24,702 bases of DNA from Candidatus Poribacteria bacterium (GCA_016215705.1 JACRIR010000080.1:1-24702); one strand, 5' to 3'. Shown: positions 8,666-24,379, counted from the stretch's first letter. Numbers and translations are program-made. Notes: generated by a model from the letters alone, not told the origin.

Positions 8666-8694
8666 TTGACAATTTTGACGCAGTGTGTTAAAAT
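8666..8694 (+). promoter_or_regulatory. Near-consensus promoter with a putative PhaR operator
   Basis: TTGACA (8666-8671), a 17-base spacer and TAAAAT (8689-8694). The spacer contains TGACGCA-G-TGTGTTA (8677-8691), an imperfect inverted repeat running into the -10. Nearly the same sequence, -35 to just past -10, recurs on the - strand at 24379-24347 before the phasin-like gene: 28 of 32 aligned positions match, with one 1-base gap. The downstream gene encodes a DNA-binding PHA regulator, so an autoregulatory operator is a reasonable inference. Confidence 0.8.
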
Positions 8695-8747
8695 GAATTC
8701 CAATACTGGACGCATTCCTCATTCTGTCAAATTGCAGGGGATTCCTC

Positions 8748-9341
8748 ATGACACGCACCATCAAACGATATGCCAACCGTAAATTGTACGACACGCAGGA
8801 TAGCCACTATGTCGGATTGGAGGACATACTTAAGCTTGTACGAGCGGGCGAGGACGTCGAGGTGATTGACAGTCGAACGGGCGAAGACCTCACCAGTGTC
8901 ACTCTCGCACAGGCGATGGCCGAAGAAGAGAAATCGAAAGGGAGCGTGTTGCCGCTTGACACTCTCAAAGAGTTGATCAAGCGAGGCAGCGAATCCCTGA
9001 ATGAAATAATGAGAAAGTCCAGACTGGCCGGAAAAGGCGCGATGCAGATGGCGGAAGAGGGCGCCTCGAAATACTATGAAAAACTCGTGAATCATGGTGA
9101 GATGAGCGAGGACGAAGCTAAGAGTTATCTGAGGCTCCTTTCCAAAGCGGTTACAAGGCGGCGACGCTCGCTGGAGGGCGCGGTCGATGACAGATTGCGG
9201 GCATTCGTGAAAACACTGAACCTCCCGGCGCGCTCGGATTTTGATACGGTTGCAAAGAAGATCGATTCACTGGCGTCCAAACTTGATTCTTACCTTGGGG
9301 AGACGCGCGCGCGCAGGGGAAGGCCGGGCAAAAAGAAGTAG
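8748..9341 (+). CDS. PHA-synthesis regulator DNA-binding domain with phasin-like C-terminal half
   Basis: A 197-residue protein. Residues 1-62 match the PHB/PHA accumulation regulator DNA-binding domain, as in PhaR: TIKRYANRKLYDT, SHYVGLEDI, VIDSRTGEDLTS. Residues 65-185 are charged, mostly helical and resemble granule-associated phasin regulators. The tail, RARRGRPGKKK, is strongly basic with an AT-hook-like RGRP core. PhaR proteins repress phasin and PHA genes and lose DNA when bound to nascent polymer. That role is known for the family and inferred here. AGGGG at 8736-8740, 7 bases before the ATG, fixes the start. It is transcribed alone from a strong promoter. No PHA synthase or depolymerase is in the window, so the actual storage polymer is unproven. 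A second phasin-like gene at the far end of the window shares its promoter sequence. Confidence 0.85.
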   Translation: MTRTIKRYANRKLYDTQDSHYVGLEDILKLVRAGEDVEVIDSRTGEDLTSVTLAQAMAEEEKSKGSVLPLDTLKELIKRGSESLNEIMRKSRLAGKGAMQMAEEGASKYYEKLVNHGEMSEDEAKSYLRLLSKAVTRRRRSLEGAVDDRLRAFVKTLNLPARSDFDTVAKKIDSLASKLDSYLGETRARRGRPGKKK

Positions 9342-9386
9342 GGGACAAGAAACTAGTAGAGCGCCTCCTAAACAATGTTGCAATGC

Positions 9387-9421
9387 TCCCCCTTTGAAAA
9401 AGGGGGACAAAGGGGGATTTA
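9387..9421 (+). repeat. CCCCCTTT palindromic repeat, copy 1
   Basis: CCCCCTTTGAAAAAGGGGG forms a hairpin, followed by a second GGGGG block and ATTTA. It lies in inverted orientation to copy 2, so the pair can also form one long-armed structure across 9387-9490. Confidence 0.75.
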
Positions 9422-9454
9422 GGAAGTCGCAGAAATCCTTGGAAAACAAGAGTC

Positions 9455-9490
9455 TTAAATCCCCCCTTCCCCCCTTTGCAAAGGGGGGAA
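9455..9490 (-). repeat. CCCCCTTT palindromic repeat, copy 2 (inverted)
   Basis: Reverse-oriented copy: TTAAATCCCCCC is followed by a hairpin of CCCCCCTTTGCAAAGGGGGG. Its reverse complement aligns along its full length with copy 1, including the distinctive GGGGGATTTA end. Confidence 0.75.
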
Positions 9491-9602
9491 CGTCGCCGAG
9501 TTAAGTGCATGTTATTTAGGAAACGCGGTACTAGTATTGTACCTCTCGCCTCTTTGCTTCACACTTTAGTTCACTTTAGACACTTCACACTCCTCCCTGC
9601 CT

Positions 9603-9636
9603 TTCCCCCTTTCCAAAGGGGGGACGAAGGGGGATT
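9603..9636 (+). repeat. CCCCCTTT palindromic repeat, copy 3
   Basis: CCCCCTTTCCAAAGGGGGG is followed by a spacer and GGGGGATTT, the same layout and orientation as copy 1. A degenerate relative, CCCTCTTTGATAAGGAGGG, lies at 22275-22293. Confidence 0.7.
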
Positions 9637-9716
9637 TCTCCTTATCCGCGCGGTATTATAGTTGATGCCTTGCGAGAATTCAATCGAGGGAAGACAAACC
9701 GGATCACGAGTGGTCC

Positions 9717-9794
9717 GATTTTGGATTCTAGATTTTGGATCACTGCTGTCCAAAACGGCTTTCTTCACCGCAACGGCGCAAAGGGCGCAAAGAG
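9717..9794. repeat. ATTTTGGATTC and GGCGCAAAG word repeats
   Basis: Two word blocks. At 9717-9741 GATTTTGGATTCTA is followed by GATTTTGGATC. At 9765-9794 CGCAACGG is followed by GCGCAAAGG and GCGCAAAGAG. Both resemble short intergenic words I have seen in other environmental genomes. No gene is supported. Confidence 0.45.
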
Positions 9795-9966
9795 GGAATC
9801 AACGGGAGAGGAATCTTTTCGTCTCTTTCGCGTTTTTCATTCGGTTTTCGGGTTCGGTGACGACTATATTATGTTATGCCTATTCGGTTGAGGCGGGACA
9901 GCGCCAAGTGTTGTCAGAATTTCCACTGTTGCGTTTGCCAAAGACCCGATTTGCGCTGAAGATAAG

Positions 9967-9997
9967 TTGAAAAATATTACCAGCTATGTGGTATAAT
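9967..9997 (+). promoter_or_regulatory. Sigma-70 promoter of the FG-GAP protein gene
   Basis: TTGAAA (9967-9972), a 19-base spacer and consensus TATAAT (9992-9997) preceded by TG at 9989-9990, an extended -10. The start near 10004 leaves a leader of about 95 bases. Confidence 0.7.
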
Positions 9998-10024
9998 AGT
10001 GGCCTTCAGTTGTGTTTGGAAGAG

Positions 10025-10074
10025 TTTGGCGTACGGAAAGTCGCGAAAACATGAAACTGCGTTTGTGCGCCAAG
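10025..10074 (+). other. Structured 5' leader of the FG-GAP gene
   Basis: Bases 10025-10035 (TTTGGCGTACG) can pair with 10064-10074 (TGTGCGCCAAG) in an 11-bp stem with GU wobbles, enclosing 28 bases. The stem ends 11 bases before the AGGAGGG ribosome site. It does not match the c-di-GMP-I or any other riboswitch consensus that I recall. It may only tune mRNA stability or translation. Confidence 0.35.
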
Positions 10075-10099
10075 GAACATCTCACAGGAGGGATTTGGA

Positions 10100-11950
10100 A
10101 TGAGCATCAACCGTTTTTCTGCAACTTTTGTCATTGCCGTTTCGCTCGTCGTGGCGGTCACGGTTCCGTCCGAGCAACCGGCCCATGCCGCGACAGCGGG
10201 TGACTCCCAAGTCTTGGCGAATTCGGGGCTTTTCTTTCCCTATGTAACCTTCCCGACAGGCTCGTGCGCGGAGGCGGTGGCCATAGGCGACCTCAATAAC
10301 GACGGCAGGAATGATGTCGTTGTGGCCACGACTGACGCCGATGACATACAGAATGACCATCGCATTCATGTTTTCCTGCAAGACATATCGGGAGAACTTC
10401 TGCCTCCTGCAAAATACGAAGTAATCAACGCGCTCAGTTCTTCCCATCCGAGGTCAGTGGATATCGGCGATCTGAATGGTGATGGAAGAAACGACGTGGC
10501 GGTCGCCACAAGCAACGCTGTCGGCGTCTTCCTGCAGAACGACACAGGCACGCTGGACCCGATGGTAGTGTATAACTCCGCACACTCGAGCGGCTCCAAC
10601 GTCTACAAAATTCGAATCGGCGACCTCAACAACGACAACTTGCTCGACATCGCGTCCATCGACTGGGGAACTCAGTCGTATTCCGTCGACGTATTCCTTC
10701 AGAACCAGGATGGCACGCTAGACACTCCGGCAGTTTACTCCGTCCAGCATGGAGGATACGACGACATGGACATTGGCGACGTGAACGATGACGGGCTGCA
10801 AGACGTTGTCGTTATGAGTGGACAGGGTGTTGGCAGCACACTAGGAATACTTATGCAGAATTCACAGGGAACTCTTGGCCCACCTATGTACTTCGACCTT
10901 ACTGACAACTCTCTCACAAATGGCGTCGCTGTAGGAGACATCAACAACGATTCCAGGGAAGATGTCGTCGTGACGTATCCGAACTACGTAGGCGCTTTCC
11001 TCCAGAACACCTCGGGCACGCTCAATCCGTCCATCCGCTACACTTCTTCCGGCGACACAAAACCCGTGGAGATAGGCGACATCAGCAACGACGGCAGGGA
11101 TGACGTGATAGCAGCCGGCGGCAACGTTGTGGAAATCCATCTGCAGAACTCGGGTGGCACACTCTCGAATTACGAACTTTACACGGTTCCCTTCGAGACT
11201 CATTATCCGCCTCACAGCCTGGCGGTGGGTGACATCAACGGAGACGGCGCGAACGATGTCGCTCTAGCTAACTGTGGCGCCGGTCTCGTCGTGCTATACA
11301 ATTCGATCAGTGTGTCACCGGCGATCGGCTTCAGTCCGACCTCGCTCAATCCCACATGCGTGCAGGGTCAGAATGCTTCCTCCCAGAGCTTCGAGATATG
11401 GAATTCCGGCGGAGCAACACTGTCGTACACGATTTCCGACAACGCCATCTGGCTTTCATGCAATCCTGCCGCCGGCACGTCGACGGGCGAGCACGACTTC
11501 ATCACGGTGACATACAGTACTTCCGGTCTTGCAGCGGGAAACTACCTGGCAACCATCGCGATATCGGCGGCCGGCGCGTCCAACACTCCCCAGAGCATCC
11601 CGGTAAGCCTCATAGTGAACGCACCGCCCCAGCTTACGCAAATAAACCTGGTATCCCCCATCAATGGGGCTATTTTGGCGGCGCCTCCAACGTTTATGTG
11701 GACTGCCAATGGAGGTTCCGGTAACACCTTTGCCGTAGAGTTGAGCTTGACACCAGCCTTCTCAACCTTTTGGTCCACCTATGTGAGCATGCATCAGCTC
11801 ATTTACGGAACAAATTGGATCATGCCAAACTCCATCTGGTTGAAAGTGCCCGTCGGGAAACCGGTATACTGGCGTGTCCGCGGCGCCGACTTGAACCGAC
11901 AGCCTCTTACTATAATCAGCAGCCAGGAGGTATTCTTCTTCTCCAGATGA
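10100..11950 (+). CDS. Secreted FG-GAP/VCBS-repeat beta-propeller protein with Ig-like C-terminus
   Basis: A 616-residue exported protein. A Sec signal peptide (about 1-31) has a hydrophobic VIAVSLVVAV core and an AHA-A cleavage site. Seven FG-GAP/VCBS repeats follow, with G-D-[LIV]-x-x-D starts near residues 63, 123, 174, 226, 279, 326 and 377. Most have the Ca2+-binding pattern DxNxDGxxD, and seven blades fit a closed beta-propeller like integrin alpha domains. Residues about 398-500 resemble a BACON-type Ig domain (FEIWNSGGATLSYTIS, WLSCNPAAG). The last 110 residues look like a fibronectin/Ig-type fold (YWRVRGADL). No anchor or sorting tail is seen, so it is probably released or surface-associated, in an adhesive or polymer-binding role. 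AGGAGGG at 10086-10092 confirms the start. It has its own promoter and converges on the lipoprotein gene. Function beyond binding is unknown. Confidence 0.88.
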   Translation: MSINRFSATFVIAVSLVVAVTVPSEQPAHAATAGDSQVLANSGLFFPYVTFPTGSCAEAVAIGDLNNDGRNDVVVATTDADDIQNDHRIHVFLQDISGELLPPAKYEVINALSSSHPRSVDIGDLNGDGRNDVAVATSNAVGVFLQNDTGTLDPMVVYNSAHSSGSNVYKIRIGDLNNDNLLDIASIDWGTQSYSVDVFLQNQDGTLDTPAVYSVQHGGYDDMDIGDVNDDGLQDVVVMSGQGVGSTLGILMQNSQGTLGPPMYFDLTDNSLTNGVAVGDINNDSREDVVVTYPNYVGAFLQNTSGTLNPSIRYTSSGDTKPVEIGDISNDGRDDVIAAGGNVVEIHLQNSGGTLSNYELYTVPFETHYPPHSLAVGDINGDGANDVALANCGAGLVVLYNSISVSPAIGFSPTSLNPTCVQGQNASSQSFEIWNSGGATLSYTISDNAIWLSCNPAAGTSTGEHDFITVTYSTSGLAAGNYLATIAISAAGASNTPQSIPVSLIVNAPPQLTQINLVSPINGAILAAPPTFMWTANGGSGNTFAVELSLTPAFSTFWSTYVSMHQLIYGTNWIMPNSIWLKVPVGKPVYWRVRGADLNRQPLTIISSQEVFFFSR

Positions 11951-11999
11951 TAGCGGGGAACATCGGGCGAAATACAGGGATGCCCTCCAAAGTTGATGG

Positions 12000-13577
12000 T
12001 CATATTTGTTGGAGACGGCCGCGGAATTTTCCGGTTGGGAGGCCGGTCATCTCTCGCATCGTGACATTGACTTTTTCATCTTTGAACTTCATGCGTATCT
12101 GCCAGTGATTGATGTTTCCCATCTCGTCCAGATCAACCATGAAGACATTCTTGTTTTTCCAAAATCCTTTGGCAGCGGCAGGCAGGCCGTACCTGCCGGG
12201 GGAAATGCGATAGACGTTATCGAGTCCCACAGGTAGTTCGAGGTCCATCTTCCCCTCGAATGATGACAAAGATAGACGCATGATCGCCTCGTCATTCTTT
12301 TGAAAGCTTAGCGAGAGAGACGTGAACCCATACATATTGGGCTCAAGCGTGAAAGTCCGGCCGGATATCTTCGCAGCCATTTCAGGCAAAGGCGGAGTCG
12401 ATTCGACCGCGTTACGGGAGAGAGTTGCCTGCCGAATGCCGGTTTCCAGCCTTGCGACAGCCTCGGGATTGGGAGGCAGCGACCCTGCCGACTTGGCGCC
12501 CGGAAGTATTATGGACTTCACTATCTCGAGTTCTTTCGTCATGTTGCGTTTGCCGGCGAGTCCGGCCGTGAGCGCCACAACCATGTTCTTTTCCGGCGCA
12601 ACAATGAGAAGCTGTCCTCCCCTTCCCACCCCGCTATAGATACCGGAGGAATCCACCCACCACAGGTAACCATAGCCGGCAAAGAGACCAAATCCTTTTG
12701 GGCGGACGTGCGAGGTCGTGGCGGCCTCGACCCAGCCGGTGGGCAGCAATTGCTTGCCATCCCAGAATCCGTTGTGCAAATAAAGCAGCCCGAGCTTGGC
12801 CATGTCGTGAGGATCGAGCTTCAGATCGCCCCATCCGTGGTTATTGATCCCTTGTGGGTCAGTCGGCCAGGTTACATTTGTTATGCCCATCGGGCCGAAC
12901 ACAGTTTCCCGCGCGAATTCGAGTGCGGTCATTCCCGTGGCTTCGTGAATAATGGCTGAGAGCAGATGCGTACCGCCGCTCGAGTATTTGAAGCGTGTTC
13001 CAGGCCTATCGGTCATCGGCAGATTGAGCATGAATTGAACCCAGTTGGGACTCTGCATCATCCGGAACAGCGTGATCTCACCCGGCCACGTTCGGCATTT
13101 CAACCCTGAACTCATGGTCAAGAGATGTTCCAAAGTTATCGCGCGCTTGTCCGCATCAAGGGTGGCAACCGTCCGTTCAGGGAAGAACGCGAGCGCAGGC
13201 TGCTGCAAACTGCTGATATTTCCATGGTGAATGGCGGACCCGATCAGAGTCGAGGTGAAGCTCTTGGTGACGGAGGCGATATCGTGCTTTGAGCCCTGCA
13301 TGAAAGGATAGAAGGCGACATCGGCCACTATGAAGCCGCTACGGATGACGAGCAGGCTGTGGATTTTCAGTTTCTGCCGCTCGACTGAGTCGATCGCCTT
13401 TATGAGCGATTCCGAGTCAATCCCTTGTTGTTCAGGCGTTGAGACTCGCCAGCTTTCCGTAGGCCAATAAGCGGGCTGTTCCGGCAAGGTGAATGGGCGC
13501 ATAGGCGGTTTTCGGCTGCATGCTGCGAGAGAAATTGCTGCTGTCAGAGCCAATATGATGGCGGGCAGCGTCTTCAT
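12000..13577 (-). CDS. Serine beta-lactamase/esterase-family lipoprotein
   Basis: A 525-residue exported lipoprotein. The signal ends in the lipobox LAAC (C20). The catalytic domain (about 45-370) is of the class C beta-lactamase/esterase/DD-peptidase family. It has the nucleophile motif S102-V-T-K105 and Y198-S-S200, and a third motif replaced by GRGGQ rather than KTG. The preceding strand pair GYGYLWW is also typical. Such proteins hydrolyse esters or peptidoglycan-related amides more often than antibiotics, and nothing here proves beta-lactamase activity. Residues about 400-525 form an additional beta-rich C-terminal domain of unknown role. The gene stands alone on the opposite strand, 49 bp from the convergent FG-GAP gene. 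The N-terminal signal peptide at the first ATG supports the start. Its promoter carries two palindromes, suggesting control by a repressor not encoded beside it. Confidence 0.85.
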   Translation of the reverse strand: MKTLPAIILALTAAISLAACSRKPPMRPFTLPEQPAYWPTESWRVSTPEQQGIDSESLIKAIDSVERQKLKIHSLLVIRSGFIVADVAFYPFMQGSKHDIASVTKSFTSTLIGSAIHHGNISSLQQPALAFFPERTVATLDADKRAITLEHLLTMSSGLKCRTWPGEITLFRMMQSPNWVQFMLNLPMTDRPGTRFKYSSGGTHLLSAIIHEATGMTALEFARETVFGPMGITNVTWPTDPQGINNHGWGDLKLDPHDMAKLGLLYLHNGFWDGKQLLPTGWVEAATTSHVRPKGFGLFAGYGYLWWVDSSGIYSGVGRGGQLLIVAPEKNMVVALTAGLAGKRNMTKELEIVKSIILPGAKSAGSLPPNPEAVARLETGIRQATLSRNAVESTPPLPEMAAKISGRTFTLEPNMYGFTSLSLSFQKNDEAIMRLSLSSFEGKMDLELPVGLDNVYRISPGRYGLPAAAKGFWKNKNVFMVDLDEMGNINHWQIRMKFKDEKVNVTMREMTGLPTGKFRGRLQQI

Positions 13578-13617: not shown

Positions 13618-13623
13618 TATCTA

Positions 13624-13822: not shown

Positions 13823-13851
13823 TTGACTAATGTATGTCCTTTTGTTAGAAT
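13823..13851 (+). promoter_or_regulatory. Sigma-70 promoter of the glycogen cluster
   Basis: TTGACT (13823-13828), a 17-base spacer and TAGAAT (13846-13851) with TG at 13843-13844 making an extended -10. The start near 13858 lies downstream of the longest possible glgC start codon, which supports the shorter protein. Confidence 0.7.
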
Positions 13852-13870
13852 TGATTCGATATGTTTCCAA

Positions 13871-13890
13871 GGGCGCAATGAATTGCGCCC
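13871..13890. repeat. GGGCGCAA hairpin in the glgC leader
   Basis: GGGCGCAA / TGAA / TTGCGCCC, an 8-bp stem with a 4-base loop, followed by CCTACG. It lies in the transcribed leader between the promoter and ribosome site of glgC. I recall this GGGCGCAATGAATTGCGCCC type of word as a common intergenic repeat in environmental genomes, so a mobile-repeat origin is as likely as a regulatory one. Confidence 0.55.
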
Positions 13891-13928
13891 CTACGTTTTG
13901 TTCGTTTCTTAGAAGGGGTCATAAGGAT

Positions 13929-15200
13929 ATGCGGCATGTTTTGGCGATGGTGCTTGTCGGCGGCAAAGGGGAACGACTTCATCCTTTGACGCTCGACAGG
14001 GCCAAGCCCGCCGTGCCCTTTGGGGGCATATATCGTCTGATTGACTTCACACTGAGCAACAGCGTCAATTCCGGCCTGCGCCGCATATTCATCCTGACGC
14101 AGTACAAATCCGATTCGCTCAATCGCCACGTGAGAAACGGGTGGAGCATTTTCCATCATGAATTCGGCGAGTTCATCGAGTTGATCCCGGCCCAGCAGCG
14201 GATCGGCGAGGAGTGGTATCTCGGGACGGCCGACGCCGTGTATCAGAACCTGCACCTCCTCGAGTACGGCATGATCTCGAGAGTCATAATTCTTTCGGGC
14301 GACCATGTTTACAAGATGGACTACGCCAAGATGCTCGATTTCCACGAATCCAAGGGCGCGGATATGACGGTAGCCGCACTCGAGGTCCCTCGTGAGGAAG
14401 GACATCGATTCGGAATTCTGCAAGTCAATGAAGACGAGCGCATAATCGGGTTCCAGGAAAAACCCGTCGACCCGCCGCCTCTGCCGGGCAAGACGGACCT
14501 CTCTTTCGGCTCGATGGGAATCTATGTATTCAACAAGGATGCGCTCATCGAGGTGCTCATGGGCTCGCCCGAAGACCGACGTTTGCATGATTTCGGAAAG
14601 GACGTAATCCCTTCGATGATCGATTCGTACAAGGTCTACGCATATAACTTCATCGACGAGAACAAGAAGCAGGCAAAATACTGGAAAGACGTAGGCGCCA
14701 TAGACCCCTACTACGATGCCAATATGGATCTTGTGTCGGTCAGCCCCGTCTTCAATCTGTATGATCCGGCGTGGCCCATCCGGACGTACCAGCCGCAGAG
14801 TCCTCCCGCCAAGTTCGTGTTCGCTCAAGAGCATCCGGGCGGGCGACTGGGTGTAGCGGTGGACTCGGTCGTCTCCGGCGGTTGTATCATCAGTGGCGGC
14901 AAAGTGAAGAGGTCTATCTTGTCGCCGCGTGTGCGAATAAACAGCTTTGCGACGGTGGAGGACTCCATCCTCTTCGACGACGTTGATATCGGACGCTATT
15001 GCCGGATCAGGAATGCGATAATCGACAAGCACGTTCAGGTGCCGCCCCGAATGGAAATCGGATATGACCTCGAAAGCGACAGGAAACAATTCACCGTAAC
15101 GGAGTCGGGCATCGTGGTGATACCGAAGAATACCAGGATAGAGACGCCTCCGCTGAGTTTCCATATGCCTTCGCCAATGAGGGCAGAAAGGGAAACATGA
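13929..15200 (+). CDS. glgC: Glucose-1-phosphate adenylyltransferase (ADP-glucose synthase)
   Basis: A 423-residue cytoplasmic enzyme that makes ADP-glucose from ATP and glucose-1-phosphate, the committed step of bacterial glycogen synthesis. The N-terminal nucleotidyltransferase domain shows GGKGERLHPLTLDRAKPAV and FGGIYRLIDF. The substrate loop is SGDHVYKMDYAKML, and KYWKDVGAIDPYYDANMDL carries the sugar-phosphate contacts. A left-handed beta-helix domain occupies the last 120 residues. The length matches the family. A start at 13830 would add 33 non-family residues and begin inside the promoter. The ATG at 13929 begins the canonical MRHVLAMVLVGGKG and is preceded by AAGGGG at 13913-13918. 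Its stop overlaps the glgA start (ATGA), so the two are probably translationally coupled. Allosteric control is typical of the family but cannot be specified here. Confidence 0.95.
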   Translation: MRHVLAMVLVGGKGERLHPLTLDRAKPAVPFGGIYRLIDFTLSNSVNSGLRRIFILTQYKSDSLNRHVRNGWSIFHHEFGEFIELIPAQQRIGEEWYLGTADAVYQNLHLLEYGMISRVIILSGDHVYKMDYAKMLDFHESKGADMTVAALEVPREEGHRFGILQVNEDERIIGFQEKPVDPPPLPGKTDLSFGSMGIYVFNKDALIEVLMGSPEDRRLHDFGKDVIPSMIDSYKVYAYNFIDENKKQAKYWKDVGAIDPYYDANMDLVSVSPVFNLYDPAWPIRTYQPQSPPAKFVFAQEHPGGRLGVAVDSVVSGGCIISGGKVKRSILSPRVRINSFATVEDSILFDDVDIGRYCRIRNAIIDKHVQVPPRMEIGYDLESDRKQFTVTESGIVVIPKNTRIETPPLSFHMPSPMRAERET

Positions 15201-16654
15201 GAATCCTGTTTGCCACAAGCGAGATGGTCCCGTTCTCAAAGACCGGCGGTCTGGCCGACGTGGCCGGCGGACTCACAAAGGCGCTTAGGAAATTGGGGCA
15301 TGAGGTTGCCGCCATCGTTCCCTACTACAAGGTCACAAGGAAGAAGGGATTCTCGACCGAGGACGTCGACCTGCCTTTTCCGGTCCCGATGTCGGACAGG
15401 GAGGAGTACGGCGAGATTTTTCGCCTTGTTCAAGAGGACGGGAGCGTCGTAAATTTCATAGGGAAAGAAGCGTATTATGACCGGGAACAGTTGTACGGCA
15501 CGCCACAGGGCGACTATCCCGACAATGCGGAACGATTCATCTTCTTTTCCAAAGCGGTTCTTCAAGCGTGCAAGGCCTTGAAATATAAGCCCGATATTAT
15601 CCACTGCAACGACTGGCAGACGGGTCTCGTGCCCGTTTATCTCAAGACCTTGCAGAACATCGACCCGGGCTTCAAAAAGGTGGCAACCCTCTTTACAATC
15701 CACAACATTGCATACCAGGGGCTGTTCTGGCACCTCGACATGCACCTTACGAACTTGTCGTGGGACTTGTTCAATCCCGAAGGAATCGAGTATTACGGGA
15801 AGATCAATCTCCTGAAGGCGGGGATAGTGGGGTCGGACATAATCACGACCGTCAGCCCGCGGTACGCCGAAGAAATTCAGACGCCCGAGTTCGGATACGG
15901 CCTCGAGGGCATTCTGAGGAAGAGGTCGGGCCGGTTGTTCGGAGTGCTCAACGGAGCGGATTACGAAGAATGGAATCCGGAGACCGACAAGTATCTCGCC
16001 GCGAACTACAGCGCGCGCGACCTCAGCGGCAAGGCGAAGTGCAAGAGGGACCTTCTCGAACAGTTCGGCCTGCCGGCCAGCAACGACGCCCCGCTGATCG
16101 GGGTAGTCTCCCGTTTGGCCGATCAAAAAGGATTCGACATACTGGCCGAAGTCATGAACGATATTGTGCGAGACGGTTTCCAGTTCGTGCTGCTGGGGAC
16201 AGGCGAAGAGAAGTATCACACTCTATTCAGCAAGATGGCGAAGAAACATCCCGACAGAGTGGGAATAAAACTTACATTCTCGAATGAGATAGCTCACAAG
16301 ATCGAGGGCGGCGCCGACATGTTCCTGATGCCTTCCCTGTACGAGCCGTGCGGCCTCAATCAGATGTACAGCCTGAAGTATGGAACTGCGCCGGTAGTGC
16401 GGGCGACGGGCGGCCTTGACGACACGATAGTGGACCATCCCACTTCGTCCAGGTTCGGCAACGGATTCAAGTTCAGGGACTATACATCTTCCGCGCTCCT
16501 CGAGAAGCTCAGGCAGGCACGCAAATCCTACGGGAACAAGGAGGAGTGGAAACGCATCATGCTGAACGGGATGGCCTGTGATTTCTCGTGGGAATCATCG
16601 GCACGAAAGTACGCGGAGCTATATCAGAAAGCCATTTTGCTCAAGAATAGTTGA
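15197..16654 (+). CDS. glgA: Glycogen synthase, ADP-glucose type (GT5)
   Basis: A 485-residue GT5 glycosyltransferase that adds glucose from ADP-glucose to the non-reducing end of an alpha-1,4-glucan. The diagnostic N-terminal motif K15-TGGLADV, which binds the ADP-glucose phosphates, is present. The GT-B C-terminal half shows GVVSRLADQKGFDIL and the E-x7-E type motif in EPCGLNQMYSLKYGTAPVVRAT split around the active site. The length is close to the 477 residues of the E. coli enzyme. The ATG overlaps the glgC stop by four bases (ATGA), which fixes both the start and the operon link. A 167-bp gap with a repeat word separates it from the GalT gene. No branching enzyme of the GlgB type is visible in the window; the GH57 genes downstream may serve for chain remodelling. 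Confidence 0.95.
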   Translation: MRILFATSEMVPFSKTGGLADVAGGLTKALRKLGHEVAAIVPYYKVTRKKGFSTEDVDLPFPVPMSDREEYGEIFRLVQEDGSVVNFIGKEAYYDREQLYGTPQGDYPDNAERFIFFSKAVLQACKALKYKPDIIHCNDWQTGLVPVYLKTLQNIDPGFKKVATLFTIHNIAYQGLFWHLDMHLTNLSWDLFNPEGIEYYGKINLLKAGIVGSDIITTVSPRYAEEIQTPEFGYGLEGILRKRSGRLFGVLNGADYEEWNPETDKYLAANYSARDLSGKAKCKRDLLEQFGLPASNDAPLIGVVSRLADQKGFDILAEVMNDIVRDGFQFVLLGTGEEKYHTLFSKMAKKHPDRVGIKLTFSNEIAHKIEGGADMFLMPSLYEPCGLNQMYSLKYGTAPVVRATGGLDDTIVDHPTSSRFGNGFKFRDYTSSALLEKLRQARKSYGNKEEWKRIMLNGMACDFSWESSARKYAELYQKAILLKNS

Positions 16655-16821
16655 AGAATCCGGTTAGACGGCGCAGGCGCAATTTCGGAAAGAACAAAGA
16701 AAAAGAACACAAGAAATGAAATAGATTGCATTTATGTCATTCTGAGCGAAGCGAAGAGTCTCAGGCGGAGTTACATGGATAGGAAGCATGGTCGGGGGAA
16801 GATTACCAGGAGAAATACATA
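16655..16821. repeat. glgA-galT gap with a GTCATTCTGAGCGAAGCGAA word
   Basis: The gap has no gene. An AG-rich stretch (16690-16720) is followed at 16736-16762 by GTCATTCTGAGCGAAGCGAA plus GAGTCTC. I recognise this word from memory as widespread in intergenic regions of unrelated bacteria. The ribosome site AGGAGA for the next gene lies at 16809-16814. No strong promoter was found, so read-through from glgA is likely. Confidence 0.55.
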
Positions 16822-17841
16822 ATGCCGGAATTACGTAAGGACCCCGTAGTCGGACGTTGGGTTATCATAGCGACTGAGCGAGGCAAAAGGCCCATGGACT
16901 TTCACCCCGAACCGGTCAGTGACGACACCGGTTTCTGCCCATTCTGCGAGGGCCACGAAGACAAGACTCCGCCGGAAATCCTTGCGTTCCGCGATAACCA
17001 TCAAGTGGCCAACGGGCCCGGTTGGAACGTTCGTGTGGTCCCTAACAAATTCCCGGCGCTTCGGATCGAGGGCGAAATGGGGAAAGCCGGCGTCGGCATG
17101 TATGACAAGATGAACGGCATCGGTGCGCACGAGGTCATCATCGAGACGCCCGACCACTTCAAGAAGCTCGACATGCACACGCAAGACAGCCTCGCAAAGG
17201 TGTTTCAGGCATGCAAGAACAGAATCATTGATCTCAACAACGACAAGCGGTTCAAATATATTCTGGTTTTCAAGAATGAGGGACGCCAGGCCGGGGCCTC
17301 GCTGAGCCACCCACATTCGCAGCTCATCGCCACGCCGGTCACGCCCAAGCGCGTGAAAGAGGAACTGATGGGCGCAAAGGAGTTTTTCAATTACAAGGAC
17401 CGCTGCGTGTTCTGCGACATCATAAGGGAGGAGCTTTCGCAGGGCTCCAGGATAATTTATGAAAACAAGGGGTTCGTGAGTTTCTCTCCGTTCGCATCGA
17501 GATTTCCCTTCGAGATTTGGGTTCTCCCGAAGCGGCACAGCCCCGATTTTCAGACCATCGAATACGAGGAGATGCTGCTGCTCGCCGACATCCTCATCGT
17601 CACCATGAGGAAGCTCGCAGTCGCGCTCAACAGGCCGCAATACAACTTGGTTCTCCATACGGGACCGGTCCGGTGGGCGAGGATGGGTTACTGGGTCACC
17701 CTCGACATGGATTACCATTGGCACATCGAGATCATGCCCAAACTCACGCAGGTCGCCGGATTTGAATGGGGCACCGGCTTCTATATCAATCCGACGGTCC
17801 CTGAAGAAGCCGCCAAATTCCTTCGGGAGATCGAGGCTTGA
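16822..17841 (+). CDS. galT: GalT-family nucleotidylyltransferase (HIT superfamily)
   Basis: A 339-residue member of the galactose-1-phosphate uridylyltransferase family. The active site is H163-P-H165-S-Q167; H165 should form the nucleotidyl-enzyme. Two CxxC pairs, C39/C42 (CPFCEGHE) and C195/C198 (CVFCDII), are likely metal ligands. The family pattern GAHEVIIETPDH is also present. Classical GalT exchanges UDP-glucose and galactose-1-phosphate in the Leloir pathway, but no galK or galE is nearby. It sits between glgA and GH57 genes, a setting in which it may instead act on ADP-glucose or glucose-1-phosphate, as the plant homologue At5g18200 does. That substrate idea is inference. AGGAGA lies 7 bases before the ATG. 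Its stop overlaps the TTG start of the GH57 gene that follows. The symbol reflects family, not proven substrate. Confidence 0.88.
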   Translation: MPELRKDPVVGRWVIIATERGKRPMDFHPEPVSDDTGFCPFCEGHEDKTPPEILAFRDNHQVANGPGWNVRVVPNKFPALRIEGEMGKAGVGMYDKMNGIGAHEVIIETPDHFKKLDMHTQDSLAKVFQACKNRIIDLNNDKRFKYILVFKNEGRQAGASLSHPHSQLIATPVTPKRVKEELMGAKEFFNYKDRCVFCDIIREELSQGSRIIYENKGFVSFSPFASRFPFEIWVLPKRHSPDFQTIEYEEMLLLADILIVTMRKLAVALNRPQYNLVLHTGPVRWARMGYWVTLDMDYHWHIEIMPKLTQVAGFEWGTGFYINPTVPEEAAKFLREIEA

Positions 17842-20024
17842 GCCGCGGCTGCATAACCTTTCTCTGGCACATGCACCAGCCTTTCTATTTCGACCGCGTA
17901 TCCGGCGAGGTATCGATGCCGTGGGTTCGCTTGCATGCGTGCAAAGGCTACTACGACATGATGTCGCTCCTCGAGGATTTCCCCCGGATAAAAGCGACCT
18001 TCAACGTCGTGCCTTCTCTTATCACCCAGCTCGACGCATATTGTGACGGAACCGCGAAAGACAAGTTCCTTGAATACAGCGCCATCCCGGCGAAAGAGCT
18101 CACGCCGGTACAGAAGAAATTCATTTTGCGCGAGTTCTTCCAGGCGAATTGGGACAATATGATTCGCCCTCACAAGCGATATTGGGAGATTATGAGCGAG
18201 CGAGGGCTGCATATCGAGCCCGACACCATCAACGATTACACCATCACCAAATTCAACGCGCAGGCTTTTCTGGACATCCAGGTCTGGTTTAACCTGTCAT
18301 GGTTCGGATATCGCGCGCGCAAGCGCTTTCCCGCGCTCAACGACCTCATCAAGAAGGGCCGGTTCTTCAGCGAGGAAGAGAAGCGCCACGTGCTGTCGCT
18401 GCAAATGCAGATACTGGGAGAGATTGTCCCTCTCTACAAACGCATGCAAGACAGCAATCAGGTGGAACTGACGACCAGCCCTTTCTACCACCCGATTCTG
18501 CCGCTGCTATTCGATTCGGAATTCGCCTGGCGATCGATGCCGGGCGCCCGACTGCCCGAAAGGTTCTGCCATCCTGAAGACGCGCAGGAGCAGATAAACA
18601 AGGCAGTCGCATTCCATACGCGAGTTTTTGGCCGCGCGCCAAAGGGGATGTGGCCGTCGGAAGGCTCCGTTTGTCCCGAAATCATTCCGCCGGCTCGGAA
18701 CGCGGGAATCGAGTGGATAGCCACCGACGAGGCCATCCTGGCGCATTCATTGAAGACACACAACGTCTATGACCACTTGTATGCGCCCTACCGGACGCGA
18801 TTCGACAGCGCCGACATGGACATAGTCTTTCGCGACCGCGGCCTTTCCGACATGATCGGGTTCGCCTATTCACGGAACAAGCCCAGGGACGCCTGCAACG
18901 ATTTACTGTACCGGCTTCGGCGCATCGCCCGCGAGCAATGGCGGCCCGAAGCGCAGCCGCTCGTGCCGATAATCCTCGACGGAGAGAACGCATGGGAATA
19001 CTATTATGACGGCGGCGAAAGCTTCCTCTCATTCGTATATGAGAGCCTCAGCAAGGACGATATGCTGCGCACGGCCACCGTCAGCGGGTTCCTTGCAGAA
19101 AACGGCGGACGACGCAGAATGGACAACCTTTACACAGGTTCGTGGATAGGACATAATTTTGATATCTGGATCGGCGACCCGGAAGAAAACGACGCCTGGA
19201 ATTGCATCAACCGCACGAGAAAGTTTCTGAAAAGATACGAGGCAAAGCATGGCGCCGAAGTCTCGGGGCTCGCCCTGGCATGGGAGGAACTATACGCGGC
19301 GGAGGGCAGCGACTGGTTCTGGTGGTACGGCCCGGATTTCTCCACTGACAACGACGCAGAATTCGATCGACTGTTCCGCATGCATTTGCAAAACGTCTTC
19401 AGAGCAGTCAACGTCGACGTGCCCTCTTACCTTTTCACAACGCTCTTACGCAAGCATAAGGGCCTCGTGGGACGCCTGCCCGTCGCATTGGTGAAGCCCA
19501 AGATCGATGGGCGCATCACCGACTTCTTCGAGTGGCAGGGGGCAGGCTGCTACGAATGCGCCCGAGGCGACAAGGCGCTCGCACTCGGATGTCGATACCT
19601 GACGCACATATATTACGGATTCGACCTGCAGAATCTGTATATGCGGTTTGACCTGGATACGGCAAGCGGCATAAGGCCCGAAGACACGTCGGTAAGACTC
19701 GATGTCTATCTGACGTGTCCGCAGGTTTACAGGCTCACTATGCCGCTTTACCTGGAGATGGCGGAAGAGAAGGTCTTCACACTCGAGTGCAGCCAGCACG
19801 GGATCGAGTTCGAGAAAGTCCGCGACTACAAGACCGTCGCGTGGGCCAAAATACTGGAGCTTTCGATTCCATTTGCGGACCTCGGCCTGCAGCCGGGGCA
19901 GAGGATCGAAATGCAGGCAAGCCTGAAGAATGACAGGATCGAAATGATGCGATTCCCGAAGGAGGGATTGCTGAAGCTCACGGTGCCCGACGAGAACTTC
20001 GAGGCAAAAATGTGGGTCGTGTGA
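17838..20024 (+). CDS. GH57 glycoside hydrolase, amylopullulanase-like, with C-terminal binding-like domain
   Basis: A 728-residue family GH57 enzyme. Motif 1 is LWHMHQPFYFD, followed by MPWVRLHACKGYYDM, a pattern of amylopullulanase-type members. The likely nucleophile is E275 in MWPSE and the acid/base is D381 in ILDGENAWEYY. The last 220 residues (about 505-728) form a beta-rich domain (YGFDLQNLYMRFD) resembling the C-terminal module of glucodextranases; that assignment is tentative. There is no signal peptide, so it is cytoplasmic, fitting a role in cutting alpha-1,4 or alpha-1,6 bonds of stored glycogen. The start is an unusual TTG that overlaps the GalT stop codon (TTGA). The HMHQP motif only about 10 residues in leaves no room for a later start, so coupling is very likely. 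Exact specificity (alpha-amylase, pullulanase or both) cannot be decided from the sequence. Confidence 0.88.
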   Translation: MSRGCITFLWHMHQPFYFDRVSGEVSMPWVRLHACKGYYDMMSLLEDFPRIKATFNVVPSLITQLDAYCDGTAKDKFLEYSAIPAKELTPVQKKFILREFFQANWDNMIRPHKRYWEIMSERGLHIEPDTINDYTITKFNAQAFLDIQVWFNLSWFGYRARKRFPALNDLIKKGRFFSEEEKRHVLSLQMQILGEIVPLYKRMQDSNQVELTTSPFYHPILPLLFDSEFAWRSMPGARLPERFCHPEDAQEQINKAVAFHTRVFGRAPKGMWPSEGSVCPEIIPPARNAGIEWIATDEAILAHSLKTHNVYDHLYAPYRTRFDSADMDIVFRDRGLSDMIGFAYSRNKPRDACNDLLYRLRRIAREQWRPEAQPLVPIILDGENAWEYYYDGGESFLSFVYESLSKDDMLRTATVSGFLAENGGRRRMDNLYTGSWIGHNFDIWIGDPEENDAWNCINRTRKFLKRYEAKHGAEVSGLALAWEELYAAEGSDWFWWYGPDFSTDNDAEFDRLFRMHLQNVFRAVNVDVPSYLFTTLLRKHKGLVGRLPVALVKPKIDGRITDFFEWQGAGCYECARGDKALALGCRYLTHIYYGFDLQNLYMRFDLDTASGIRPEDTSVRLDVYLTCPQVYRLTMPLYLEMAEEKVFTLECSQHGIEFEKVRDYKTVAWAKILELSIPFADLGLQPGQRIEMQASLKNDRIEMMRFPKEGLLKLTVPDENFEAKMWVV

Positions 20025-20034
20025 TTACGAGCAG

Positions 20035-20082
20035 TTCCTTAATCGGGGACACCATGCGGCATGGTGTCCCCGATTAAAGGAA
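20035..20082. repeat. 23-bp-arm hairpin with GGGGACACCATG core
   Basis: TTAATCGGGGACACCATGC (20039-20057) and GCATGGTGTCCCCGATTAA (20059-20077) are perfect inverted repeats around one base. Four more pairs (TTCC/GGAA) follow after a single-base bulge. It sits in the 84-bp gap between two GH57 genes. It could be a REP/MITE-like mobile repeat, and in RNA it would be a very stable stem that may reduce or stabilise expression of the downstream gene. Confidence 0.85.
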
Positions 20083-20108
20083 ACACATGTGGGTTACTTA
20101 GGAGCGCC

Positions 20109-22238
20109 ATGACAACTCAAGTAAACTTGATGTTCGGAATTCACTCGCACCAGCCAGTGGGTAACTTCGGCGGTGTGTTCGAGGAGGCCTATCGGAATTG
20201 CTACCGCCCGTTCCTCGAGACGCTGGCGCGCCATCCCGGAATCAGGGCGGCGCTACACTATTCCGGACCGCTGCTCGAGTGGATCGAAGAAAACGAGCCG
20301 GACTACATTGACATCATTGCCTCGCTCGCCGAGAGAGGGCAGATCGAGATGCTCAGCGGCGGCTTCTACGAGCCAATCCTTCCAATAATCCCGCGTGATG
20401 ACGCGCTTGGCCAGATTCAGATGATGAACGACTATATCAAACGCCGCTTCGGCCAGAAAGCGCGCGGATTATGGCTCACCGAGCGGGTGTGGGAGCCCTG
20501 TCTTCCGTCCCTCATTGCGCAAGCAGGTTTGAACTACACCGTGATCGACGAGACCCACTTTGCTTATGCGGGCCTTGGCCCAAAGGACATGTTCGGCTAT
20601 TATCTCACTGAAGACGACGGCCGCGAAGTGGCGGTATTTCCCATAGACAAACACCTTCGCTACTACATCCCGTTCAAACTGCCGGAGGATACGATCGACT
20701 ATCTTCGGAGTGTTTCGGAAGAGGGAAAAACAACTGACATAACATACGGAGATGACGGCGAGAAATTCGGTGTTTGGCCGGAAACATACAAGTGGGTTTA
20801 CACCGAGGGCTATCTCGAAAAGTTGTTTTCCATGCTCGAGGCCAACTCGGATTGGATCAAGATGCCGACCTTTGCGGAATTCATCGAGTCACATCCGCCG
20901 ATGGGCCGAATATACTTACCGGCCGCGTCATACGACGAGATGATGGAATGGGCGCTGCCTTCGCGCTCGACGGTGAAGTATCAGGAGATTGTCGAGAAGC
21001 TCACTTCCGACGGGGTGTATCAGGATTACAGACCATTCATCCGGGGCGGCTTCTGGCGTAATTTTCTCGTGAAGTATCCGGAAGCGAACCAGATGCACAA
21101 GAAAATGATTCACGTGAGCCGGAAGGTCAACGCGATAAAGGGGAAAGCGGCGGCGGCGGGCAGACGCGAGTTGTGGCGCGGCCAGTGTAATTGTCCTTAT
21201 TGGCATGGCCTGTTCGGCGGCTTGTACCTCAACTATCTTCGGTTTGCCAACTATAGCAGCCTGCTGCGCGCCGAGAAGATAGCAGACGATGCCACGCACA
21301 GCGACAGCTCGAAGGTTCACGTCGAGCACACCGACTACGACTGCGACGGCCACAAGGAACTACTCGTGTCCACTCGCGATTATGGCGTTTGCCTCAGTCC
21401 CGGCTATGGCGGCTCCGTGACGGAAATAGACTACAGACCTAAGTGCTTCAACATGACCGACGTGCTCAGCCGTCGGCCCGAATCATACCACCGCAAGATA
21501 AAAGAAGCGTCCCATCAGTCCAAAACGGAAGAAGTAAAATCGATTCATGACATTGTCCGTGTGAAAGAAGCCGGCCTCGAGAAAAAGCTCAACTACGATT
21601 GGTATGACCGACGCTGTTTCCTCGACCATTTCATCCGTCCGGGAACGACGATCGAGGCGTTCGCGCGCGCAGACCATGACGAAGAGGGCGACTTCGTGAA
21701 CCAGCCGTATGAGTTGGTGGGCAAGAAGAAATCAGGCGACAAACTTATTGTTACCCTGAAGCGCGACGGTCACCTGTGGCGCCAGCGGTGCGCGATCCCG
21801 GTTTCGGTCGAGAAATCGCTGGCCATAAGCGGCGAGAGCGGCATCGTGGCGAATTATGCGGTCCGCGCCGGCAAAAAACCCATCGACTCCACGCTTTTTG
21901 CCGTTGAGCTCAACCTCACGCTGCTTGCGGGCGACAACGAGGATCGCTACTATGAGATACCGGGTGTCGCATTGAGCCGGAACCGCATGAACAGCATTGG
22001 CGCGGTGGATTCAGTTTCCCTTGTCCGGCTCGTGGACCGTTGGATGGGTATAGCAATTGAAATCCGATACGAACCGGCGGCCACATTCTGGAGATTCCCT
22101 GTTGAGACCGTTTCACAATCAGAGGGCGGCTTCGAGAGGACCTATCAGGGTTCAAGCGTTACAGCCGTGTGGCCCCTTTCTCTCGAGGCTGATGACTCGG
22201 CAAATTACTCGGTCAGCCTGAGTGTGGAACAACTATGA
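20109..22238 (+). CDS. GH57 4-alpha-glucanotransferase
   Basis: A 709-residue GH57 enzyme of the 4-alpha-glucanotransferase type (Thermococcus litoralis TLGT-like), which moves maltodextrin segments between alpha-glucans. Motif 1 is FGIHSHQPVGNF and GGFYEPIL is motif 2. The nucleophile is E125 in LWLTERVWEP. The acid/base is most likely D216 in GDDGEKFGVWP, positions close to E123 and D214 of the TLGT enzyme. After the barrel (to about 310), the remaining 400 residues fit the helical and beta-sandwich domains usual for this type (RRCFLDHF, GTTIEAFARADHDEEGDF, ELNLTLLAG). An in-frame ATG at 20061 lies inside a strong hairpin and adds 16 unrelated residues. The ATG at 20109, after AGGAG at 20100-20104 (4-base spacing, rather short), starts the canonical protein. 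It is cytoplasmic and probably the last gene of the glycogen cluster. Confidence 0.9.
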   Translation: MTTQVNLMFGIHSHQPVGNFGGVFEEAYRNCYRPFLETLARHPGIRAALHYSGPLLEWIEENEPDYIDIIASLAERGQIEMLSGGFYEPILPIIPRDDALGQIQMMNDYIKRRFGQKARGLWLTERVWEPCLPSLIAQAGLNYTVIDETHFAYAGLGPKDMFGYYLTEDDGREVAVFPIDKHLRYYIPFKLPEDTIDYLRSVSEEGKTTDITYGDDGEKFGVWPETYKWVYTEGYLEKLFSMLEANSDWIKMPTFAEFIESHPPMGRIYLPAASYDEMMEWALPSRSTVKYQEIVEKLTSDGVYQDYRPFIRGGFWRNFLVKYPEANQMHKKMIHVSRKVNAIKGKAAAAGRRELWRGQCNCPYWHGLFGGLYLNYLRFANYSSLLRAEKIADDATHSDSSKVHVEHTDYDCDGHKELLVSTRDYGVCLSPGYGGSVTEIDYRPKCFNMTDVLSRRPESYHRKIKEASHQSKTEEVKSIHDIVRVKEAGLEKKLNYDWYDRRCFLDHFIRPGTTIEAFARADHDEEGDFVNQPYELVGKKKSGDKLIVTLKRDGHLWRQRCAIPVSVEKSLAISGESGIVANYAVRAGKKPIDSTLFAVELNLTLLAGDNEDRYYEIPGVALSRNRMNSIGAVDSVSLVRLVDRWMGIAIEIRYEPAATFWRFPVETVSQSEGGFERTYQGSSVTAVWPLSLEADDSANYSVSLSVEQL

Positions 22239-22274
22239 GCAAGCACACTTCATGTCAAAGGTAGGTAGACTATT

Positions 22275-22337
22275 CCCTCTTTGATAAGGAGGGCAGTTTC
22301 GGACAAGGGCGTGAAGAAAGATCACGCTTGTTTCTTT
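22275..22337 (+). terminator. Hairpins at the end of the glycogen cluster
   Basis: Two structures: CCCTCTTTGATAAGGAGGG (22275-22293, a degenerate relative of the CCCCCTTT repeats), and a stem CGTGA/TCACG plus CAAG/CTTG with a two-base bulge (22303-22330) followed by the T-rich TTTCTTT. The second could act as an intrinsic terminator before the panE-like gene, though the stem is imperfect. Confidence 0.4.
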
Positions 22338-22353
22338 GAAGGATGATCCGCCT

Positions 22354-23322
22354 ATGAAAACCACCCTCTCAACCGTTGCAATCGTCGGCCCCGGCGCAAT
22401 CGGTTGCCTCTTCGGCGCCCTGATCGGAGGAGCAGGCCATTCAGTGATCATGCTCGACATCCGACCTGAGCGAGCCGAGAAAATCAACCGCGATGGTATC
22501 CGCGTCGAGGGCATATCCGGTAGGCGGACCGTCAAGGTCAAGGCCACTGCGCGACCGGCGGATGTCTCGGGCTGCGACGTGGCTGTCATCGCGACTAAGT
22601 CGTATGATACCGAGGCAGCGGTCAGGAGCGTAGCGGATGTCATAGGGAGCCGCACTCCCGTCTTAACACTCCAGAACGGCCTTGGCAACGTTGAGTTGAT
22701 CGCTCATGCCGTCGGAACCGAAAGGACGATCGGAGGAATCACGTCGCAAGGCGCCACGCTGGTGGCGGACGGCTCCATCGTACACGCGGGGGCCGGAAAG
22801 ACCGTCATCGGCACTCCCTCAGGCCGGCTCACGGAGAATCTGAAGCGGGTGAGAGACATTCTCGATTCGGCGGGTTTCAGCGCGGAGGTTTCCGATGACC
22901 TCGATGGCGCGGTCTGGGGGAAACTCGTCATTAACGTGGGGATAAACGCGCTTACGGCCATAACACGCCTGAACAATGGGAGACTGCTTGAATTCGAGGG
23001 GACGCGGGAAGTAATGAGAGAGGCAGTCGCCGAGGCAGTCGCAGTCGCAAAGGCAAGGGGAATCAGGCTTGCCCACAAAGACCCGTTAGCTCAAGTCGAG
23101 GAAGTATGCCGTCTGACCGCAACGAATGTGTCCTCGATGCTTCAGGATATCCTCGCGAAAAGGCGAACTGAAATAGACGCTATAAACGGGGCGATGGCAA
23201 AGATAGGAAACGAACTGGGAGTTCCGGCCCCCGTCAATTCGCTCCTCACTTCGCTTGTTCACACTATAGAATCAAGTTACGCTCTGCAGGTCCAGCGGCA
23301 GACAACCGCCCCGGGGAAATAA
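22354..23322 (+). CDS. panE: 2-dehydropantoate 2-reductase (ketopantoate reductase family)
   Basis: A 322-residue NADPH-dependent reductase of the PanE/ApbA family, which reduces ketopantoate to pantoate for coenzyme A synthesis. The Rossmann motif G12-P-G-A-I-G17 begins near the N-terminus. The NADPH and substrate segment ATKSYDT and the LQNGLGN loop follow. The catalytic lysine is probably K190 in WGKLVINVGINALT, with the C-terminal helical domain after it (AKRRTEIDAINGAM). The length is typical. An upstream TTG at 22336 is in frame, but AAGGA at 22339-22343 lies downstream of it and properly precedes the ATG at 22354, which is chosen here. It is not obviously linked to the glycogen genes and converges on the B12 subunit gene with only 19 bp between. 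Other 2-oxoacid substrates are possible, as many genomes have several homologues. Confidence 0.85.
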   Translation: MKTTLSTVAIVGPGAIGCLFGALIGGAGHSVIMLDIRPERAEKINRDGIRVEGISGRRTVKVKATARPADVSGCDVAVIATKSYDTEAAVRSVADVIGSRTPVLTLQNGLGNVELIAHAVGTERTIGGITSQGATLVADGSIVHAGAGKTVIGTPSGRLTENLKRVRDILDSAGFSAEVSDDLDGAVWGKLVINVGINALTAITRLNNGRLLEFEGTREVMREAVAEAVAVAKARGIRLAHKDPLAQVEEVCRLTATNVSSMLQDILAKRRTEIDAINGAMAKIGNELGVPAPVNSLLTSLVHTIESSYALQVQRQTTAPGK

Positions 23323-23341
23323 TTGATGAGACCCTACGCCC

Positions 23342-23740
23342 TCATCCGCACGCGCGCCGGATATAATCCACTATTTCCTTTGTGGGAGTTCCCGGGCCGA
23401 ACAATGCCGCGACGCCTGATTCAAGCAATTGCTGCCGGTCCTCTTCGGGAATAATCCCGCCACCCGTGAGAACAATATGGTCCGCCCCCCTCGAGTCAAG
23501 CATGTCCTTCACTTTCCTGAAAAGGGTCATGTGCGCTCCGGAGAGAACTGAGAGACCGACAACGTCCACGTCCTCCTGAATTGCAGTTTCCACAACCATC
23601 TCGGGTGTCTGATGCAGACCGGAGTAAATCACTTCCATCCCGGCGTCTCTCAAGGCGGCGGCAACCACCTTGGCGCCGCGGTCATGGCCATCGAGGCCGG
23701 GTTTGGCGACAAGCACTCGAATTTTCTTGTTGGATTTCAT
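23342..23740 (-). CDS. B12-binding subunit of a methylmalonyl-CoA mutase-type enzyme
   Basis: A 132-residue free-standing cobalamin-binding domain. The base-off B12 motif D17-G-H19-D-R-G22 supplies the cobalt-ligating histidine H19. GLSVLSGAH and [12 protein letters not shown] are the other nucleotide-tail contacts. The length is that of the small C-terminal subunit of split acyl-CoA mutases (McmA2 or HcmB-like), which need a separate large subunit not present in this window. Known partners isomerise methylmalonyl-CoA/succinyl-CoA or related acyl-CoAs. It is second in an operon, 13 bp after the phasin-like gene. No good Shine-Dalgarno precedes its ATG, which suggests translation coupled to the first gene. 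Which acyl-CoA is used cannot be told from the small subunit. Confidence 0.88.
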
Positions 23741-23753
23741 TGTCAGGGGTGGT

Positions 23754-24296
23754 CTATGCCGCCTTTGCCAGACGACGCTCTATGGCTTTCAGGATCGTGC
23801 TCCGATTGCGATGGCCTTTCTCGTAGTCTTTCAGCGCGGCTAACTCTTGAGGACTCAGGTCATTGAGTTTTTCGAGGACTACTCCGACCGCCATGTTATC
23901 ATACTCAGGGATGATGCGCACTTCATCGAGCTCTCTGTCTATCTGGCGTAGTATTCTGATACGATTATAGTTATGGTACTCGTAACCTCTAATTATCTCC
24001 AGTTGTCTCATGGGGAGACTCTTCAACTGGTCAATTATTTCGGTAACAGTCATATCGTCATATCCGGGGATGATACTGTTCACATTGCTCGCCGATGGGA
24101 CTCTCGACCCTATTTTGAATGCCGCCAGCAACGCCTTGCTCAGGCTGTCCTCCTTCTCATTGAGGCGCTCGCCCCGCTTTACGAAATCGTTGAGTGAGTC
24201 CTTGAGCGACTTTCGAATGTTGGAAAGCTTCTCGCGCGAGAACTCGACAGCGCCGATTCCACCGAAGCAGACCTTCTTTAAGATGTTGACTGCCAT
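23754..24296 (-). CDS. Phasin-like protein with two 49-residue YD/YE repeats
   Basis: A 180-residue protein not assigned to a named family with certainty. Residues 1-60 are helical with a short hydrophobic start and a D-F-V-K-R-G-E segment (37-43), typical of phasin-like granule regulators. Two tandem repeats follow at 75-123 and 128-176. They share IIPxYDxMxV, then L-x2-L-x4-L, YE, NR, IL, I-x-R-x-L; 19 of 49 positions are identical. Repeats of this kind occur, to my recollection, beside phasin-like helices in granule or lipid-droplet proteins. It probably binds or organises a storage granule (inference). It is first in an operon with a B12 mutase subunit. GAAGGAGA lies just upstream of the start. 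Its promoter is nearly the same as that of the PhaR-like gene, which suggests shared control. Confidence 0.75.
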
Positions 24297-24349
24297 AGCC
24301 TTTCTCCTTCTCCCGTAGTCCTCCCAGCAGACCGTCTTTTGCCAGGGTC

Positions 24350-24379
24350 ATTCTAACGCAATGCGTCAACAATTGTCAA
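24350..24379 (-). promoter_or_regulatory. Promoter of the phasin-like operon with PhaR-type palindrome
   Basis: On the - strand, TTGACA (24379-24374), an 18-base spacer and TAGAAT (24355-24350). Between them TGACGCA-T-TGCGTTA (24368-24354) is an inverted repeat with 6 of 7 arm pairs. The whole element copies the one at 8666-8697, including AATT after the -35 and AATGA at the -10. This is the basis for proposing a shared regulator. Confidence 0.8.

Follow-up and report, generated by a model that had tools for sequence, protein, structure and literature searches.

The stretch of DNA analysed here (the window, 24,702 nucleotides) is contig C258 of the 5.47-Mb genome (G000, 92% complete) of a deep-subsurface bacterium of the candidate phylum Abyssobacteria, and it carries two distant promoters with a common core sequence. 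One precedes the gene for a PhaR-like regulator (8748–9341, + strand; 197 residues, with a PHB_acc_N domain, PF07879, at residues 4–63) and the other the gene for a 180-residue phasin-like protein (23754–24296, − strand). We analysed both promoters and their shared element, and compared them with related sites in the same genome, in sister genomes and across bacteria.

Two promoters and a shared palindrome

The phaR-like promoter reads TTGACAATT-TTGACGCAGTGTGTTAAAATGAA on the + strand from 8666 (also written TTGACAATTTTGACGCAGTGTGTTAAAATGAA), and the phasin-like promoter reads TTGACAATTGTTGACGCATTGCGTTAGAATGAC on the − strand from 24379. Their alignment reproduces exactly the 28 identities at 32 aligned positions, with one 1-base gap, that a sequence-only reading of this DNA had reported. 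Both are near-consensus sigma-70 promoters with TTGACA as the −35 (8666–8671, + strand; 24374–24379, − strand), a −10 of TAAAAT (8689–8694, + strand) or TAGAAT (24350–24355, − strand), and spacers of 17 and 18 bp, respectively. The phaR-like promoter matches the consensus at 11 of 12 hexamer positions and has TG ahead of its −10. The same reading held that the spacer is conserved too, and this is borne out by 15 of 17 equal positions when one gap is allowed; among 200,000 random spacer pairs the best reached 14 matches and none reached 15.

The proposed imperfect inverted repeat is real. Its arms are TTGACGC/GTGTTAA at 8675–8691 (+ strand, TTGACGC-AGT-GTGTTAA) and TTGACGC/GCGTTAG at 24353–24369 (− strand, TTGACGC-ATT-GCGTTAG), separated by a 3-bp centre, with five of seven Watson-Crick pairs between the arms at each site. 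Alignment of 13 promoters from several lineages gives a 17-bp palindrome consensus, TWRACGC-ANT-GYGTTA(A), which begins 3–4 bp past TTGACA and whose final bases are the first bases of the −10. The spacing is unchanged across these promoters. Since the palindrome runs from 3–4 bp after the −35 into the −10, the candidate operator takes up the spacer. GTG outnumbers GCG in the right half (9 of the 13), and 9 of the 13 promoters have TGn ahead of the −10; the T in the right half creates the TGn of an extended −10, which could plausibly account for the imperfect symmetry. Scanning the window with the 16-mer of the element finds two exact places and one 3-mismatch place at 4300, and both exact places recur on the opposite strand with three mismatches because the 16-mer is palindromic; as had been claimed, the remaining promoters of the window carry no other good copy.

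Recurrence of the box within the genome, in sister genomes and across bacteria

Exact TTGACGCANTGNGTTA occurs at three places in the 5.47-Mb genome, the two window sites and C168 5339–5354. The C168 site has the same promoter layout (TTGACA-GAT-TTGACGCAGTGTGTTAAAAT), with a second box 25 bp further on, and precedes the gene for a 139-residue phasin (PF05597, E=4.5e-10, 40.1 bits against a cut-off of 28.8). On contig C75, an enoyl-CoA hydratase (crotonase) gene followed by EtfB/EtfA-type genes has a palindromic place directly downstream of its −10, the gene names coming from reading the translations. Two-mismatch places in the genome, such as that at an IMP dehydrogenase gene (L012), were not counted, because the reversed pattern is about as frequent (25 vs 29).

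Two genomes of the same family, G001 and G002 (Candidatus Abyssobacteria SURF_17), retain the box at phaR (L066, L061), with a phasin gene directly behind phaR in both, and also at the phasin-like gene (L060 in G002, L121 in G001). The palindrome is thus kept in both relatives that keep both genes. In SURF_17 the C168-type phasin gene has a double box (L065) and the crotonase gene is boxed as well (L063). That identity spans the −35, spacer and −10 would also be expected if one promoter had been copied from the other, with no operator involved. However, the identity ends outside the promoter, each promoter is kept at its own locus in the sisters, the palindrome is conserved while sequence elsewhere has changed, and the same arrangement stands before phasin-type genes in other phyla, so that we regard copying as barely credible.

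Several further palindromes occur in G001 and G002, including those ahead of a NuoE-like gene and a formate–tetrahydrofolate ligase gene. In G001, a NuoE/hydrogenase-type operon has TTAACGCATTGTGTCA about 100 bp upstream (L072, 2001); searched as an exact pattern, this palindrome was not found in the sister genomes. Two further G001 boxes (L070, 2001; L071, 2001) have the common flank TTTACTCTTGAT.TGTTGACGC.ATG.GTTATCT and no clear downstream gene; they may belong to promoters of small RNAs or be parts of repeats.

The combined promoter and box pattern, TTGACN{3,6}TTRACGCNNNGYGTTA, was searched in 386 genomes spread over bacteria and occurs at 12 places, 10 of which precede phaR or phasin-type genes. 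Seven are the Abyssobacteria sites at phaR, phasin-like or phasin genes, three stand ahead of phasin-type genes (G045, G190 and G050), and the remaining two (G151, G031) are not before genes of either kind. PF07879 is encoded in seven of the eight genomes with a pattern match vs 54 of all 386 (Fisher p=5e-6), and the co-occurrence holds when Abyssobacteria are excluded (p=0.0013). The reversed pattern, used as a control, occurs at a single place vs the 12. This control bears on whether the likeness is merely that of a strong extended −10 sigma-70 promoter, as the near-consensus hexamers and the frequent TGn might suggest. A spacer with TTRACGCA is not needed for an extended −10, however, and the second boxes lie downstream of the −10, which together with the control makes this explanation very unlikely.

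We also scored the upstream regions of 31 phaR genes outside the phylum, about one per genus in the phylum-spread sample, with the TTRACGC-N3 palindrome. Twelve score at least 11 of 14, vs 0.73 expected from other windows at the same loci, and in most of these the good box lies 27–82 bp upstream of the start codon. Over the 31 regions the box scores add up to 298, above all 20,000 control draws (maximum 287). In a de novo palindrome search of these regions TGACG-N5-CGTCA, the same element as the window palindrome, ranks first of 11,264, and the proteobacterial form, TGTGC-N3-GCACA, ranks third. At least seven lineages have the box ahead of phaR itself, and in G061 a double box lies before a phasin-phaR operon. 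In another lineage (G059, L089), two proteobacterial-type boxes (GTGCAGCGCAC, GTGCAACGCAC) were seen 20–50 bp before phaR, so both box types are present in the sample.

The regulon proposed from the two window promoters is accordingly supported and extended, by the third exact copy before a phasin gene, by conservation in the sisters and by recurrence at phaR and phasin genes of other lineages. The scan of the genome and its relatives gave matches ahead of phaR and of phasin genes (C168, its SURF_17 orthologue and phasin-type genes in further lineages), and the shared spacer did not turn up before many unrelated genes.

Comparison with known PhaR boxes and a model of regulation

Published PhaR boxes have YGC-N3-GCR in common (PMC12542648, PMC3206438, PMC10888616, PMC12849132). 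They include CTGCNNNGCAG in R. sphaeroides and the core YGCRNYGCR in S. meliloti, the latter supported by electrophoretic mobility shift assay (PMC12542648), the footprinted TG[N]TGC[N]3GCAA of H. seropedicae PhbF (PMC3206438), NGCN3GC[GA] in B. diazoefficiens (PMC10888616) and YTKNTGCRNYGCANMAR in Cupriavidus necator (R. eutropha) H16 (PMC12849132). The core YGC-RNY-GCR with its 3-bp centre is found with 0–1 mismatches in all Abyssobacteria sites. The sequence-only reading had seen a fit to TGC-rich PhaR sites; the 3-bp-spaced core is indeed the same, but the triplets are CGC on the left and GYG on the right rather than TGC and GCA.

The C. necator H16 box is likewise a 17-bp palindrome with a 3-bp RNY centre at a phasin promoter, and differs from the window site at 24369–24353 by three mismatches, with C/G here for T/A there at the third position from the centre; the C. 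necator boxes flank the phaP1 −35 and start site, whereas those described here fill the spacer (PMC12849132). Against the core of the Sinorhizobium meliloti PhaR (AniA) box, WNWD2NYGCRNYGCRNH2WNW, the site at 24369–24353 has no mismatch and that at 8675–8691 has one. As here, S. meliloti has two boxes at phasin promoters, and phasin genes are the main targets, although the arms are TGA/TCA here and AT-rich in that polyhydroxybutyrate maker (PMC12542648). Herbaspirillum seropedicae PhbF has the same TG-N-YGC-N3 geometry and the autoregulation that is proposed here, with CGC replacing TGC here (PMC3206438). In Paracoccus denitrificans, as cited in PMC3206438, PhaR binds a TGC-rich region over the phaR −35/−10, so that the site overlaps the phaR promoter as it does here while the box sequence differs. 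Autoregulation is not universal among the PhaR proteins studied (PMC12542648).

Taken together, the shared core is very probably an operator of the PhaR type lying within a sigma-70 promoter. On this sequence evidence a PhaR protein is by far the likeliest binder of the palindrome, because of the YGCRNYGCR fit, the position at phaR and phasin genes and the co-occurrence with PF07879. Alternatively, the palindrome could serve another regulator, such as a fatty-acid regulator of the TetR or MerR type, with phaR and the phasin genes simply among its targets. A crotonase-EtfBA operon, typical of beta-oxidation regulons, is boxed in two genomes, which would suit such a regulator, and the textbook PhaR sequence is not a palindrome of the TGACGC type. 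Against this, the box follows PF07879 across phyla and stands at phaR in many lineages with the PhaR core YGC-RNY-GCR kept, and no second regulator gene was seen beside the boxes, where no systematic search for one was made; we consider a different regulator unlikely.

Several observations weigh against a PhaR-type operator. Nineteen of the 31 foreign phaR genes have no good box within 150 bp, some of them lying inside operons, and the de novo result is modest at about 0.02 after multiple-testing correction. The third base from the spacer is C here and mostly T in published boxes, and the R. eutropha 17-mer does not discriminate in the window (26 matches vs 26.6 expected); that consensus was rejected as a scanner for its chance-level performance. 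Among the sister genomes, the crotonase box was not found in G001 (L140), and several boxes in G001 and G002 precede unrelated genes or sit in no clear promoter. The window regulator itself misses the NCBI equivalog TIGR01848, with 84.6 bits (E=5.5e-24) vs a cut-off of 109.45.

In the model that we propose for the PhaR-type operator, the PhaR-like protein, as a dimer or tetramer, would occupy the 17-bp palindrome between the −35 and −10 and exclude RNA polymerase. It would thereby repress its own gene and the phasin-like gene that starts at 24296, and through two boxes the C168 phasin gene, while the crotonase-EtfBA operon would be repressed via the box just downstream of its −10. Once hydrophobic inclusions form, their surface would attract the regulator through its phasin-like C-terminus and the operator would be freed; the regulator would then be made, and coat proteins (phasins) would be produced in amounts proportional to inclusion surface. 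This is the established PhaR cycle, applied here by inference (PMC12542648, PMC12849132). The PhaR boxes in the literature cited are from proteobacteria only, and their sequences have at times been called unrelated; one box at one promoter position in several phyla would amount to a common operator and offer an easy regulon finder for uncultured bacteria.

The encoded proteins and the nature of the putative inclusion

The PhaR-like regulator scores 89.6 bits against PF07879 (E=1.4e-25; cut-off 25). Its C-terminus is phasin-like, with PF05597 at residues 84–181 (E=2.2e-11) and a 51-bit match to TIGR01837, and PF05597 occupies the place of the granule-binding domain PHB_acc (PF05233), which was not found in the protein. 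Its inclusion-binding part may therefore be a phasin module. The phasin-like protein has a phasin-related N-terminus followed by two tandem copies of a domain of about 50 residues. It matches NF047773 (E=2.7e-5) and the lipid droplet-associated NF033649 (E=9.2e-11) with scores below both cut-offs, and no Pfam phasin match was found for it. The 50-residue domain is common to the lipid-droplet protein family Rv1109c and to the boxed protein in phasin position of G050. Orthologues in the sister genomes are 72% and 63% identical, and AlphaFold predicts an all-helical fold at low confidence (pLDDT 69, pTM 0.43). Searches of the genome contigs gave five loci with the PhaR-like protein and no relatives of the phasin-like protein, and PDB sequence searches with the two proteins gave no match. 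The gene after the phasin-like gene encodes the small (B12-binding) subunit of methylmalonyl-CoA mutase (23342–23740, − strand; TIGR00640, E=6.9e-50). It stands there in this genome only, a different gene following the phasin-like orthologue in both G001 and G002, and its proposed membership of a conserved operon is rejected.

The three Abyssobacteria genomes are drafts (92, 98 and 91% complete), and profile searches of them gave no match to the polyhydroxyalkanoate (PHA) synthase family PF07167, and for TIGR01836 no match in G000 or G001 and a 22-bit fragment only in G002. The WS/DGAT wax-ester/triacylglycerol synthase (PF03007), considered as a substitute for PHA synthase, was not found in any of the three either. 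The regulon may thus not be a PHA regulon in the strict sense, as no PHA synthase gene was found in these genomes. In a term-based search of the published description of the lineage, glycogen is named as storage compound and polyhydroxyalkanoate is not mentioned (PMC6121073). Among the 54 PhaR-bearing genomes of the 386-genome sample, 37 have no TIGR01836 match at E<=1e-15. One genome of the sample, G075, in which PHA synthase was not detected, has a PhaR-phasin operon with several upstream boxes about 3 kb from a WS/DGAT gene (C59; L167 1873–2763, 5069–6541). At most, G075 and the PhaR-bearing genomes with no synthase match hint that in some bacteria the inclusions sensed by PhaR are of another kind.

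We suggest tentatively that the PhaR-phasin switch of Abyssobacteria, and of other lineages that have PhaR and its box without PHA synthase, may respond to an inclusion of another kind, for instance lipid droplets or some other hydrophobic body, and may tie its coat proteins to acyl-CoA metabolism. If so, an inclusion-sensing circuit would be the older form, and PHA sensing one of its specialisations. The presence of the box where PHA synthase was not found makes the question of what PhaR senses testable.

Between the two window sites, at 13830–22238, lies a glycogen cluster without a box (GlgC-type, glycogen synthase-type and GalT-type genes and two GH57 enzymes). Directly after the phaR-like gene, at 9353–9538, is a repeat of about 185 bp resembling a miniature inverted-repeat transposable element, with terminal inverted repeats (ACTAGTA...GCG..TCCTAAA). 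Contig C56 begins inside the same repeat and continues with a relative of the phasin gene found right behind phaR in both sisters. Two readings fit this arrangement, interruption of a phaR-phasin operon by the element or a contig join made across the repeat.

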